A DNA stretch of 20,975 nt from Elusimicrobia bacterium HGW-Elusimicrobia-2 (GTDB lineage Bacteria; CG03), in the NCBI GenBank assembly GCA_002841685.1, contig PHAM01000032.1, positions 1 to 20,975 on the forward strand, read 5' to 3'. The stretch's first letter is position 1. Each line of letters opens with the position of its first letter. Both the position numbers and the translations under genes were made by a program. Below the pieces are notes generated by a model. That model searched no databases. It saw nothing but the letters and a program-made list of their open reading frames with translations, and was not told where the DNA came from. Of the stretch, positions 16,048 through 19,512 are shown in pieces.

Positions 16048-16061
16048 AACAATCCCGGTCT

Positions 16062-16198
16062 CATATGCGCGACAAGCGCCCCGCTGACGGTACCCGTAGA
16101 CGGCCGCTCAGGTATGCGCTTCGCTGCCAATTCGCTCGGAGCACTGGGCAAAACTCCTCGCTCATATGGCCCGCTCCGGATACCGTCAGCGGGCCGAT
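16062..16198. repeat. Long-armed inverted repeat between convergent genes
   Basis: CCCGCTGACGGTACCCG (16080-16096) and CGGATACCGTCAGCGGG (16177-16193) are complementary at 16 of 17 positions and enclose 80 bases. CATAT occurs at both outer edges, and another CATATGGCCCG lies inside the right arm. The interior contains CGCTTCGCTGCCAATTCGCTC, recalling the TTCGCTTCGCTC cores of intergenic repeats. The segment fills the gap between the ends of the beta-helix gene and the UPF0280 gene, so it may act as a two-way terminator, or be a miniature mobile element. It shares GCCCGCTCCGGA with the segment at 13367-13546. Confidence 0.55.
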
Positions 16199-16202
16199 AT
16201 GT

Positions 16203-16931
16203 TTATGTCAGTTCTGTGAATTCTATATCGCCGGCGAATGCGATCTTATCGTTTATTATCGCGGCGCAGCCGGTGACAGATTTGTGACACACGCAGGAAT
16301 CAACGGCCTTTTCAAGATCCCCCGCCGTCTGGACGCTGTTTGCCAGAGCCGTCGCGAAAGCGTCGGAAATAGCGCCCGAGGGCGATATCACAACAGCGAG
16401 GAGAGCTTTGCCGAAACTCAGCGAATGTCCTATTTGTGAAGACGAGCTCGATATTGCGCAGGGCAGAAGATTCTTTCTTATTTTCAGAGCGAATTTATCG
16501 AAAGAGCTCCCTGTGTATAAACCGCATATAAGATCCTCCCGAGAAGAAGCGAAGATGTCGCCGCCGTTTTCTATTATGAGCGTACCGAATGGCGTTCTGA
16601 CCGAGCGGAACAAAGCTTCGGCGATAGCCCCCGCGACCGCTGCCATGGGCCCCGTGCCGGATCTCCGGCCTGCGTCAATCATGTTCTTGATTATGACAGG
16701 GTCAGCATCATCGCTCTCTACTGGTATCAGCGATTCGGCGAACAGCTTATCGGCGACAGCGCGATCTTCCACTTCGCCGTATATCAGGGGAAGATTCGCG
16801 CGGCATTCTTCCTCAACATCAGCGTCGGAGGATACGGATATGCTGCAGTGACGGTATTTCAGAGTGAAATTGTTTTTGACCCGCGCTCGGGGGCGGTAAA
16901 AGTGTTTTTCTCCTACGCCGGGGATTCGCAC
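16203..16931 (-). CDS. UPF0280 / COG2122 ApbE-like protein
   Basis: The 242-residue protein belongs to UPF0280 (COG2122), distantly related to the ApbE flavin transferase fold. Family marks are the start HFYRPRARVKNNF, AAVAGAIAEALF (97-108), IENGGDIF (120-127), SSQIGHSLSFGKA (164-176) and the ApbE-like DAFATALAN (190-198). The start is GTG at 16931, five bases after the ferredoxin stop codon; it is chosen because the family opens with this motif and no better start exists. Homologues often lie near NIL-domain ferredoxins and COG1900 proteins. The Methanosarcina acetivorans member (MA1715, from memory) is needed for efficient sulfide assimilation. Its chemistry is unknown. Here it is the third gene of that same set, which supports a role in delivering sulfide-derived sulfur to homocysteine. 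Confidence 0.85.
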   Translation of the reverse strand: MRIPGVGEKHFYRPRARVKNNFTLKYRHCSISVSSDADVEEECRANLPLIYGEVEDRAVADKLFAESLIPVESDDADPVIIKNMIDAGRRSGTGPMAAVAGAIAEALFRSVRTPFGTLIIENGGDIFASSREDLICGLYTGSSFDKFALKIRKNLLPCAISSSSSQIGHSLSFGKALLAVVISPSGAISDAFATALANSVQTAGDLEKAVDSCVCHKSVTGCAAIINDKIAFAGDIEFTELT

Positions 16932-16935
16932 TGAA

Positions 16936-17340
16936 TCAGTATTTCAAGGTCATCGCGTTGTAGGGGCAGTGCGTTATGCAGAACTCGCAGGCGATGCATT
17001 TTTTGGGGTCGAACACGACCTTGTTACCGGCGTCAAAAGAGAAGGCGTTAGTGGGGCAGTAGCCGACGCACACGCCGCAGGAAACACATTTCTTCTCGTC
17101 CATCTTGATGTCTTCGCCGAGCCTCTGGAAAGACACTCCGCTCTTTTTGAAAAAAGCGCAGGCCGCATCAATGTTTTTCTTGCTCCCTTCCATCTCAAGT
17201 ATCATCCTGCCGACCCTGTTTTGTGTGATGGTCGCCTGGAGGATGTTGAAGGATATGTCGTGTTTTCTTGCCAGCGTCGAGATTATGGGCTGGTTCACCA
17301 CCTGGGGCGAGAATTTGAGCACCAGTCTTTTTTTGATCAT
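16936..17340 (-). CDS. NIL-domain 2x[4Fe-4S] ferredoxin
   Basis: The 134-residue protein has an N-terminal NIL domain (about 1-78), the substrate-binding-like fold also found on methionine ABC transporter ATPases. A bacterial ferredoxin domain follows. Eight cysteines form two CxxCxxCxxxCP clusters, C85/88/91/95 (CVSCGVCVGYCP) and C115/118/121/125 (CIACEFCITHCP), each binding a [4Fe-4S] centre. The ATG at 17340 overlaps the upstream gene's stop (ATGA) and is preceded by GGAGGG. In Methanosarcina the equivalent (MA1822) works with a COG1900 partner in homocysteine synthesis from sulfide. The NIL domain may sense or bind a sulfur amino acid or its precursor, while the clusters supply electrons or carry sulfur; that division is inference. 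Confidence 0.93.
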   Translation of the reverse strand: MIKKRLVLKFSPQVVNQPIISTLARKHDISFNILQATITQNRVGRMILEMEGSKKNIDAACAFFKKSGVSFQRLGEDIKMDEKKCVSCGVCVGYCPTNAFSFDAGNKVVFDPKKCIACEFCITHCPYNAMTLKY

Positions 17341-18503
17341 TTGACCCTCCCGGCGCCCGGAAGCAGGGCAGTGGGATCGCCCAGAAGGAACTGACCCGCT
17401 CTGATCTTTTTCTGGAGTATTTTCGCGATTTCCCGGGCTTTTTTAAGGCTGGACCATGAAAAGGAAGGTATCTCTTTTTTGCCGAGCTTTACGGTTCCGC
17501 TCCTGAGTTCTTTGTAGCTGACGAGGGCTATGGCTTTTTCTTTTCCGTAGGGATAATCTTCCGAGTAATCTATGACGGGGGCGAATATCTCATCGTCGCC
17601 TTTTCCGGCCGCGCGGGCTATGCTCTCGTCAAGAACGGGGATGGGGATGCCCACTCCGACAGAAAGAGACGCGCCGTAACCTGTCAGGTAAGCCGCCCTG
17701 AGAAAATCAGGGGATGTTTTTTTGAGATCGCAGATCAGGGCTATGGTCGCCGCGCCGCCGACAGGGAAACCGTTCTTCTTTTTAACGGATGTCGTGTGCT
17801 GCGTGCCGTGCCAGACTATGTATCCTTCCGCGCCCGCCATGAAAACACGCGTGCCGATGCCTATGGTTTTGAGCTCCGGATCGTTGAGCAGGGGGCTCAG
17901 AGTGCCGGCAGAGGAATAAGAGATGCTTCCCATTTTGGGTTTCAGTATACCCATATACGTGTATATGGTTTTGCCGGATCTGTTGACGGCGACATTGTAG
18001 TTCTGGTAACAGTTGCGGGGATTGAACAAAACAGCGTCTGTCAGATCCGCGAGCTTAAAACTTTTCCTGAGGCTTGTCGCGGGATAGCAGTCCGTTCCAT
18101 AGGCTGTTGCCTCGAGCAGGACGCTTTTTCCCCTGACAAAGTCCTCTATGACGCCAGCGCCGCCGTATTTGAAATTTATGGGCCGCAATCTGTTCTTTTC
18201 ATAGCGGGGCAGAGCCGTCGCTCCGAGGAAGACATCCCTTGCCGCGTATGCCGCGTAAGCCGGCACCTTGTTGAGCGTCACCTCGCCGCCGCCGAGTTTT
18301 ATTTTGGGGCTTGTCTTCGGTATGTTGAAGTAGATGCCCGAAGAGCACATCGGCCCGAAGGTGCCTGTCGTGACCACATCCACCTTCCGCGCGGCTTTTT
18401 TCACGCCGTGCTCCCTGACATAGGACACCATCTCTTCGCTGGTGAGAACCACGGCTTTTTTCTGCTGTATCCTCCCGTTTATCTCATAAATGCTTTTTTT
18501 CAT
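17337..18503 (-). CDS. COG1900 / DUF39 homocysteine biosynthesis protein
   Basis: The 388-residue protein is a clear DUF39 (COG1900) member. The family is implicated in forming homocysteine from aspartate semialdehyde and sulfide in methanogens. Two cysteines in conserved settings, C53 (GTFGPMCSSG) and C139 (YGTDCYP), correspond by context to the two essential cysteines I recall in Methanosarcina MA1821. Other marks are NPRNCYQNYNVAVN, ISYSSAGTLSPLLNDP and IGIGTRVFMAGAEGYI. The C-terminal CBS pair of the methanogen protein is absent. The start is ATG 18503, with AGGAG (18516-18520) upstream. An in-frame start at 18560 is excluded because it lies upstream of the promoter. It is the first gene of a three-gene operon, coupled by ATGA to the ferredoxin. 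Confidence 0.92.
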   Translation of the reverse strand: MKKSIYEINGRIQQKKAVVLTSEEMVSYVREHGVKKAARKVDVVTTGTFGPMCSSGIYFNIPKTSPKIKLGGGEVTLNKVPAYAAYAARDVFLGATALPRYEKNRLRPINFKYGGAGVIEDFVRGKSVLLEATAYGTDCYPATSLRKSFKLADLTDAVLFNPRNCYQNYNVAVNRSGKTIYTYMGILKPKMGSISYSSAGTLSPLLNDPELKTIGIGTRVFMAGAEGYIVWHGTQHTTSVKKKNGFPVGGAATIALICDLKKTSPDFLRAAYLTGYGASLSVGVGIPIPVLDESIARAAGKGDDEIFAPVIDYSEDYPYGKEKAIALVSYKELRSGTVKLGKKEIPSFSWSSLKKAREIAKILQKKIRAGQFLLGDPTALLPGAGRVK

Positions 18504-18527
18504 TTGAAACACAAGCTCCTTGCGCCC

Positions 18528-18556
18528 ATTATAATTTTTTTTATCCCAACTTGCAA
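18528..18556 (-). promoter_or_regulatory. Promoter of the sulfide-to-homocysteine operon
   Basis: On the minus strand TTGCAA (18551-18556), a 17-base spacer and a perfect TATAAT (18528-18533) make a strong promoter. Transcription should start near 18521, putting the AGGAG ribosome binding site at the very 5' end of the mRNA, about 18 bases before the ATG. No riboswitch or SAM-box-type leader can fit, so regulation by homocysteine or methionine, if any, must act elsewhere. Confidence 0.7.
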
Positions 18557-18626
18557 ACAAACGGAAGGGGTATATTTAGTGGGATAATGGTATTTGCGAT
18601 CTTTATATGAAGTTCTCGCGGATTTT

Positions 18627-18635
18627 TGTTATACT
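18627..18635 (+). promoter_or_regulatory. Extended -10 promoter of the DUF2007 gene
   Basis: TGT followed by TATACT (18630-18635) is a good extended -10 box. The ATG at 18643 comes seven bases later with no Shine-Dalgarno sequence, the same layout as at secA, again suggesting a leaderless transcript. No clear -35 hexamer is seen. Confidence 0.5.
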
Positions 18636-18642
18636 TCTCCAA

Positions 18643-19065
18643 ATGAAATTGATCACAGTTTTCTCATCAATGTCGGTGATGGATGTGCAGCTTGCCAAAG
18701 CTGTCCTGGAAAGCGAAGGTATCCAATCTTCCATCGCGGATTATCATATAGCCAGCATAGCGCCTCATTATATACCGGCTTTAAGCGGCATTAAATTGAA
18801 TGTTAAAGAGCAGGATTATCATGATGCAAAAAAAATATTAGATGATTATATGGGGAAAATACAAAAACCGGCAAACAAGAAAACGGAACACACAGTTAAT
18901 AAAATGAAATGTCCAAAATGCGGCAGTGAAAATTTAATTAAAACAGGCGCATCGAAAATGTGGGCTTTGATAGTAATAAGCTTTCTTTTTATGGACGGCG
19001 TGCCGCGAAAACCTTATTTGAAGTGCCGGGACTGCGGTTATAAAGTGAAAATTAAAAACATATGA
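18643..19065 (+). CDS. DUF2007 domain plus zinc-ribbon protein
   Basis: This 140-residue protein begins with a DUF2007 (putative signal-transducing) domain, about residues 1-70, recognised by TVFSSMSVMDVQLAKAVLES with SEGI following and by the KLNVKEQDYHDAKKIL segment. Residues 88-140 form a zinc ribbon with C90-x2-C93 and C128-x2-C131. The two cysteine pairs are separated by a strongly hydrophobic stretch (about 106-117), unusual inside a ribbon and possibly a membrane-contacting helix. I prefer ATG 18643 to 18607 because the family starts with this strand and the -10 box lies between the two. The gene is AT-rich relative to its neighbours and stands alone, which hints at recent acquisition. 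Its function is not known. Confidence 0.75.
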   Translation: MKLITVFSSMSVMDVQLAKAVLESEGIQSSIADYHIASIAPHYIPALSGIKLNVKEQDYHDAKKILDDYMGKIQKPANKKTEHTVNKMKCPKCGSENLIKTGASKMWALIVISFLFMDGVPRKPYLKCRDCGYKVKIKNI

Positions 19066-19119
19066 CCATTCGGCGAGTGTCGCAAAACGCTGCTGTTTCG
19101 CGTTGAAAAAAGGAGAATT

Positions 19120-19512
19120 ATGAAACTTGATGTTGTTTTTCCGGGCGGAAAGAAAGTGGATGTGCTGTATCACGGTTTCAGGATACGATCCGATCAGCCC
19201 GTTGAAGACGGCGGAGAGAATTCCGCGCCGTCCCCCTACGACCTGTTCCTCTCATCCATAGCCGCCTGCGCGGGTTATTATGTTATAGCTTTCTGCGCGC
19301 AGAGGGGTATAAGCTCCGAAGGGCTGGCAATGACGATGAACTGCGAAAAAAACGAAGAGACGCACACCATAGGCAAAATAGACATAGCCATCAAACTTCC
19401 CGCGGGTTTTCCGGAAAAATACAGGAACGCCGTCGTTAAAGCCGCCGAATCATGCGGCGTGAAAAAACGTTTTGTTTACCCGCCGGAATTCAGCGTTTTC
19501 ATAGAAAGCTGA
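19120..19512 (+). CDS. OsmC-family protein
   Basis: The 130-residue protein is an OsmC/Ohr-type protein, a family of thiol peroxidases and related proteins that detoxify organic hydroperoxides as dimers. The two family cysteines are present, C50 (in SSIAACAGYYV) and C112 (in AAESCGVKK), along with the SPYDLFLSSIAAC segment. Length is normal. AAGGAG precedes the ATG at 19120 with good spacing. It more closely resembles the general OsmC-like subgroup than Ohr; the substrate cannot be stated. The gene lies 54 bases after the DUF2007 gene on the same strand, and neighbouring hydrophilic composition is ordinary. Confidence 0.88.
   Translation: MKLDVVFPGGKKVDVLYHGFRIRSDQPVEDGGENSAPSPYDLFLSSIAACAGYYVIAFCAQRGISSEGLAMTMNCEKNEETHTIGKIDIAIKLPAGFPEKYRNAVVKAAESCGVKKRFVYPPEFSVFIES

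Follow-up and report, generated by a model that had tools for sequence, protein, structure and literature searches.

A divergent copy of a known three-gene operon, predicted to form homocysteine from sulfide, with an altered UPF0280 loop

A three-gene operon on the minus strand of the window (the whole stretch of DNA analysed here, 20,975 nt; operon at 18503-16203) encodes, in this order, a HcyBio/DUF39 protein, a NIL plus 2x[4Fe-4S] ferredoxin and a UPF0280/COG2122 protein. We infer its activity, which is very probably the formation of homocysteine, the methionine precursor, from sulfide and aspartate semialdehyde in the manner of L-ASST, and likewise the exact role of UPF0280. The pathway is known (PMC5764234) and the gene arrangement is common, so that the novelty which an earlier note on this DNA had seen in the three-gene unit falls away; what is unusual here is the divergence of this copy and the altered loop of its UPF0280 protein.

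Results

Operon layout and expression signals

The features of the operon are as follows.

18528..18556, minus strand: sigma-70-type promoter, TTGCAA-17-TATAAT (consensus scan; kept in L001, L014, L015 and L016)
18516..18521, minus strand: ribosome-binding site AAGGAG, 12 nt before the ATG (sequence; kept in four congeners)
17340..18503, minus strand: HcyBio/DUF39/COG1900 protein, 387 aa, predicted L-aspartate semialdehyde sulfurtransferase large subunit, without the CBS pair (PF01837; AlphaFold)
18345..18347, minus strand: codon of HcyBio Cys53 (GPMCSSG), the motif equivalent of the essential, persulfide-bearing Cys54 of MA1821 (invariant in 93/93 sequences; role from PMC12068725 and PMC5764234)
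18087..18089, minus strand: codon of HcyBio Cys139 (GTDCYP), the motif equivalent of MA1821 Cys131, reported as non-essential in vivo (invariant in 93 sequences; PMC12068725)
16936..17340, minus strand: NIL domain plus 2x[4Fe-4S] ferredoxin, 134 aa, predicted electron-donor subunit (PF09383 and Fer4 matches)
16966..17088, minus strand: two CxxCxxCxxxC motifs of the ferredoxin part, Cys85-Cys125 (sequence, alignment)
16203..16931, minus strand: UPF0280/COG2122 protein (ApbE fold), 242 aa, GTG start (NF003323; 2O34 match)
16449..16460, minus strand: UPF0280 loop Cys158-Ala-Ile-Ser161, in which the conserved Cys is Ser161 (alignments; codons TGC at 16458-16460 and TCG at 16449-16451)
16401..16403, minus strand: UPF0280 Leu177, where 36/36 relatives have the Asp of GxADA (alignment)

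The stop codon of the first gene and the start codon of the second share an ATGA overlap, and a 4-nt gap (TTCA) separates the second gene from the GTG of the third. Both junctions are kept in the congeneric loci L014 and L015; in L016 the first junction reads TAATG and the second is the same as in the window. The consensus scan for promoters gave 5 matches where 3.1 ± 1.9 were expected, and the promoter match alone is thus weak evidence, little above chance. Across four congeneric loci, TTTGTTTGCA, the A-tract, TATAAT and AAGGAG are kept while the flanking bases diverge. Since the promoter hexamers, the A-tract, AAGGAG and the gene junctions persist across four congeneric genomes, the operon is a real unit. 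The earlier note's description of three minus-strand genes coupled by ATGA and four bases is therefore confirmed, the families by profile and the junctions directly in the sequence, as is its view that they form one unit, given the kept junctions, promoter and ribosome site. Its one strong promoter is conserved in the four congeneric loci, but the consensus match by itself is not strong. No riboswitch was found upstream of the operon at Rfam gathering scores, and a search for plasmid-borne copies gave no PLSDB match.

Two side observations concern the flanks. Behind the operon, at about 16060-16200 of the window, lies a 170-nt intergenic element whose long inverted repeat is near-perfect (fold z = -3.6). 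The element is 92% conserved in L015, and 65 nt of it are found again, at 77%, on a different contig of this genome (L003); it may be a dispersed repeat or resemble a terminator. On the other side the operon is adjoined by divergent DUF2007 and OsmC genes (18607-19512, plus strand), an adjacency kept in L014 and L016. OsmC proteins handle peroxides or thiols, and by analogy a link of this neighbour to sulfur is possible.

A divergent HcyBio lineage

The HcyBio protein matches PF01837 with 449 bits (gathering cut-off 26.2) over profile positions 1-349 of 349, and its AlphaFold model has a pLDDT of 93. A solved structural relative was not found by sequence, and Foldseek and VIA-align searches with the model returned noise only (best Foldseek E 0.03; Z ⩽3.2), which is not proof of a new fold. 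The two context-conserved cysteines pointed out in the earlier note, Cys53 and Cys139, are indeed invariant in the 93 sequences compared. Its suggestion that tolerance of mutated cysteines would speak against the function holds for Cys54 of MA1821, which is essential, but not for Cys131, which is non-essential (Methanosarcina, 2025; PMC12068725).

No CBS pair, a C-terminal feature of the methanogen subtype, was found after HcyBio, with ⩽33 residues beyond the profile match in 93/93 loci examined. Judged from these proteins, lack of the pair is the rule among the loci examined, and the pair does not define bacterial HcyBio. The absence had been noticed correctly before, but the reading that it removes regulation is misleading, since none of the 93 loci has a CBS-sized extension and the NIL domain, a proposed methionine-inhibition site (Methanosarcina, 2025; PMC12068725), is kept; with this domain present, loss of regulation should not be concluded. 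The NIL domain is recognized by PF09383 with 68 bits, in a protein encoded adjacent to HcyBio that also has two Fer4 stretches, and all eight cluster cysteines are conserved.

HcyBio shares 50-58% identity with its relatives from other genera (nearest named, from an FCPU426 MAG, 57%) and 87-98% within the genus. In the tree the four congeneric proteins group on a single branch, whose stem measures 1.85 changes per column. This branch is attached neither to the phylum's other copies nor to the copy of the same-family G007 or the second one of G004, also of this family, although joins of long branches are unreliable. The other 89 sequences define 135 positions with ⩾93% conservation, and at 25 of these one or more of the four congeners departs from the conserved residue. 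The changes at conserved positions include H117G, Q201T, G258C and M263T, with Cys53 and Cys139 kept. HcyBio of the window's genus is a long-branch and unusually divergent lineage.

The long stem and the up to 25/135 altered positions would also fit a COG1900 aldehyde sulfurtransferase with a changed substrate, comparable to MMP16, in which case homocysteine would come from another route or from uptake. MMP16 thiolates sulfoacetaldehyde for coenzyme M. This coenzyme M synthase (MMP16/ComF, COG1900d) belongs to the same COG1900 superfamily as the window protein, but it carries a ferredoxin domain of its own and acts on a different substrate. With the MMP16 model TIGR03287 the window protein reaches only 122.7 bits, far below the cut-off of 363.95, whereas it matches the HcyBio profile over the full length and keeps both motif cysteines. 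The genome content that bears on a changed substrate is given further below.

The altered loop of UPF0280

The UPF0280 protein scores 179 bits (E 1e-52) with the PRK04334 model NF003323, under the strict equivalog cut-off of 271 bits; such a sub-cut-off score is common to 15/16 genomes of the phylum. It has no Pfam match. It does match the solved D. vulgaris protein DVU1097 (2O34, E 3e-25), and its AlphaFold model (pLDDT 90) has a predicted ApbE fold with 2O34 as the best match.

The protein deviates at 8 of 42 positions conserved to the same degree as those counted for HcyBio. In the motifs used here, G[IV]C[TS]SS and GxADA, which were derived from our alignments and are not a published definition, the Cys is present in 35/36 relatives; in the window its place is taken by Ser161, and Cys158 stands three residues upstream. 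The otherwise invariant Asp is lost in the window's class. The upstream Cys, in the form CGIS or CAIS, is common to the window and two further genera of its family (L103, L105). In another family of the phylum the conserved Cys is also Ser, with an upstream Cys in L101 and none in L011, and the L005 protein has both loop cysteines. The change from Cys to Ser thus occurs in two families of one phylum, in most cases with the upstream Cys. In G009, which represents a second lineage within the phylum, neither loop position is a Cys. In the UPF0280 tree the proteins of the family form one group, whose nearest neighbour is L104, from the same class; this indicates that the loop change predates the window's genus.

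A strict need for cysteine at that position is difficult to square with an altered loop of this kind. One tentative explanation, which we consider unlikely, is that the sulfur-handling step has been rebuilt in this family: the UPF0280 loop Cys would have shifted (GxC to CxxS) with loss of the nearby Asp, HcyBio of the window's genus would have gained Cys258 and lost other conserved residues, and UPF0280 would pass sulfur from a different position or act without a cysteine. Of these two roles, a non-thiol one is favoured by the G009 protein.

Separately, the UPF0280 gene of L008/L101 (G010:C155) was seen to have an in-frame TGA where relatives encode the Gly of FAGES. Selenocysteine or a recoded TGA was considered and rejected on account of this Gly position; more likely is a change of one base, either an error or the mark of a pseudogene.

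The long branches of all three proteins and the loss of near-invariant residues could further be read as signs of a relic, redundant or in decay, that diverges under relaxed constraint, with methionine being imported. However, relaxed constraint would not keep frames, junctions, promoter and cysteines as they are found here: the three frames are open, junctions, promoter and ribosome site are maintained in four species, the Fe-S and catalytic cysteines are intact, and UPF0280, with 76-95% identity, is preserved within the genus, as is HcyBio. We therefore regard a relic as highly improbable.

Distribution and comparison with known systems

The earlier note had suggested tallying the gene order across bacteria. 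An HcyBio-alignment scan of one genome per species (84,980 species) was used, and the best 80 loci of more than 583 relatives, a non-random sample, were compared. HcyBio, NIL-ferredoxin and UPF0280 are found in the same order on one strand in at least 28 of these best 80 loci, a lower bound because some loci end near the genes. The rest comprise 32 loci with HcyBio and NIL-ferredoxin only, 18 with neither gene nearby and 2 with another order. Members of the 28 come from Chloroflexota (one D. mccartyi MAG), Bacillota, Elusimicrobiota, a deltaproteobacterial MAG and a MAG labelled Diapherotrites. The three-gene arrangement of the window is therefore common and spans several phyla. The MAG labelled Diapherotrites archaeon (L071) has all three genes in one operon, its UPF0280 sitting on a long branch, a case of transfer or mis-binning. 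Genes of this pathway have been noted in Chloroflexi and deltaproteobacteria before (Mukai et al. 2017, PMC5424206).

Genetic evidence for the pathway comes from D. vulgaris, where all three genes are needed for homocysteine, and so for growth without methionine, according to transposon fitness (Price et al. 2018, PMC5764234). Its COG2122 mutants are rescued by methionine, with a fitness correlation of r = 0.98 to the DUF39 gene (PMC5764234). The argument of the earlier note that UPF0280 is a true pathway partner is thus right but had already been established by these experiments. The D. vulgaris proteins (DvMF_1464, DvMF_0262, DvMF_0044) belong to the same three families as those of the window, and conventional homocysteine enzymes are missing there too (PMC5764234); in D. 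vulgaris Miyazaki, however, the three locus tags lie far apart, whereas the window has one operon. The Dehalococcoides cluster DET0921:DET0919 was named in the same work as carrying the pathway (PMC5764234). In the D. mccartyi MAG locus L024 the three genes follow the window's order on one strand, but the gaps are longer (for example, ~430 nt ahead of the UPF0280 frame), and its UPF0280 keeps GICTSSG and the Asp, unlike that of the window. The Methanosarcina L-ASST, MA1821-MA1822 with MA1715, shares the families and the motif cysteines, and a persulfide and ferredoxin chemistry has been proposed for it (PMC12068725, PMC5764234). In contrast to the window HcyBio, MA1821 has a CBS pair, and MA1715 is located elsewhere in the Methanosarcina genome by its locus number.

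Homocysteine routes in the genome and its phylum

The window's own assembly (1.78 Mb, 94 contigs, 96% complete) encodes Asd, Hom, a full-length MetH, MTHFR and CysK. In this genome, which was examined by family searches and in the stretches around their matches, neither MetX (TIGR01392) nor MetA (PF04204) gave a match, and no MetB/MetC/MetY-type enzyme (PF01053) was found beyond three weak matches, which were rejected as a lysine-decarboxylase-like protein, a serine palmitoyltransferase/KBL-like protein and SHMT. The genome is thus predicted to make aspartate semialdehyde and to use homocysteine, with the operon as the only visible link. The sulfide-to-homocysteine assignment of the earlier note is well supported by the matching families and by the presence of Asd, Hom, MTHFR and MetH. 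Its main refuting test, a complete conventional route encoded alongside the operon, came out in its favour, since no such route was found (MetX, MetA, PF01053). Because these enzymes were not found, the operon is the only visible homocysteine source in this genome, although a conventional gene could be missing from a 94-contig assembly that is ~4% incomplete.

The phylum is small, and 16 genomes were compared. HcyBio is present in 12 of them and UPF0280 in 14, and full-length PF01053 enzymes only in G006 and G005, the other 11 HcyBio genomes having none. G006 has a MetY-type enzyme and lacks both HcyBio and UPF0280. This near-complementary pattern of HcyBio versus PF01053 supports the pathway assignment. 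The sister species G005 (HcyBio 98% identical) carries the operon together with a metX-cysK-metY cluster (L120, G005:C63:2500-7000), which holds one of its full-length PF01053 enzymes, so the operon need not be the sole route in every genome; both routes may coexist there, or the bin, listed as 4% contaminated, may be contaminated. The congeneric G004 has the divergent three-gene operon and, in addition, a canonical HcyBio-NIL pair without UPF0280 nearby (L010, L016).

The G005 cluster and the canonical G004 pair both speak for a changed substrate, and a genome with a divergent and a canonical copy leaves room for a different substrate of the former, but the second G004 copy may itself be contamination (6% listed). 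Moreover, the window's own genome, which has MetH and MTHFR, revealed no other source of homocysteine, and G003, where PF01053 was the sole family tested, no PF01053 enzyme. These absences make a change of substrate less likely, and we consider it improbable.

Discussion

Taken together, the data are best explained by homocysteine formation. Sulfide would be loaded as a persulfide on Cys53 of HcyBio with the help of UPF0280, and HcyBio would transfer the sulfur to the aldehyde of L-aspartate semialdehyde, the product of Asd. The thioaldehyde-like intermediate would then be reduced to homocysteine by electrons of the NIL-ferredoxin, and MetH would methylate the homocysteine to methionine. This chemistry we infer from the literature, while gene content, operon structure, conserved cysteines and genome context were seen here. 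The earlier reading was correct in its observation and its pathway, but did not notice how divergent this copy is or that its UPF0280 loop has changed.

The natural UPF0280 variants offer a cheap test of the role of this protein in the pathway: if a UPF0280 without the conserved cysteine still supports homocysteine formation, a persulfide relay via that residue is excluded. The route escapes standard annotation, in which UPF0280 is a 'hypothetical protein' and the best NCBIfam match of HcyBio is MMP16. With this operon, one more candidate phylum joins the anaerobes in which homocysteine is made without homoserine.
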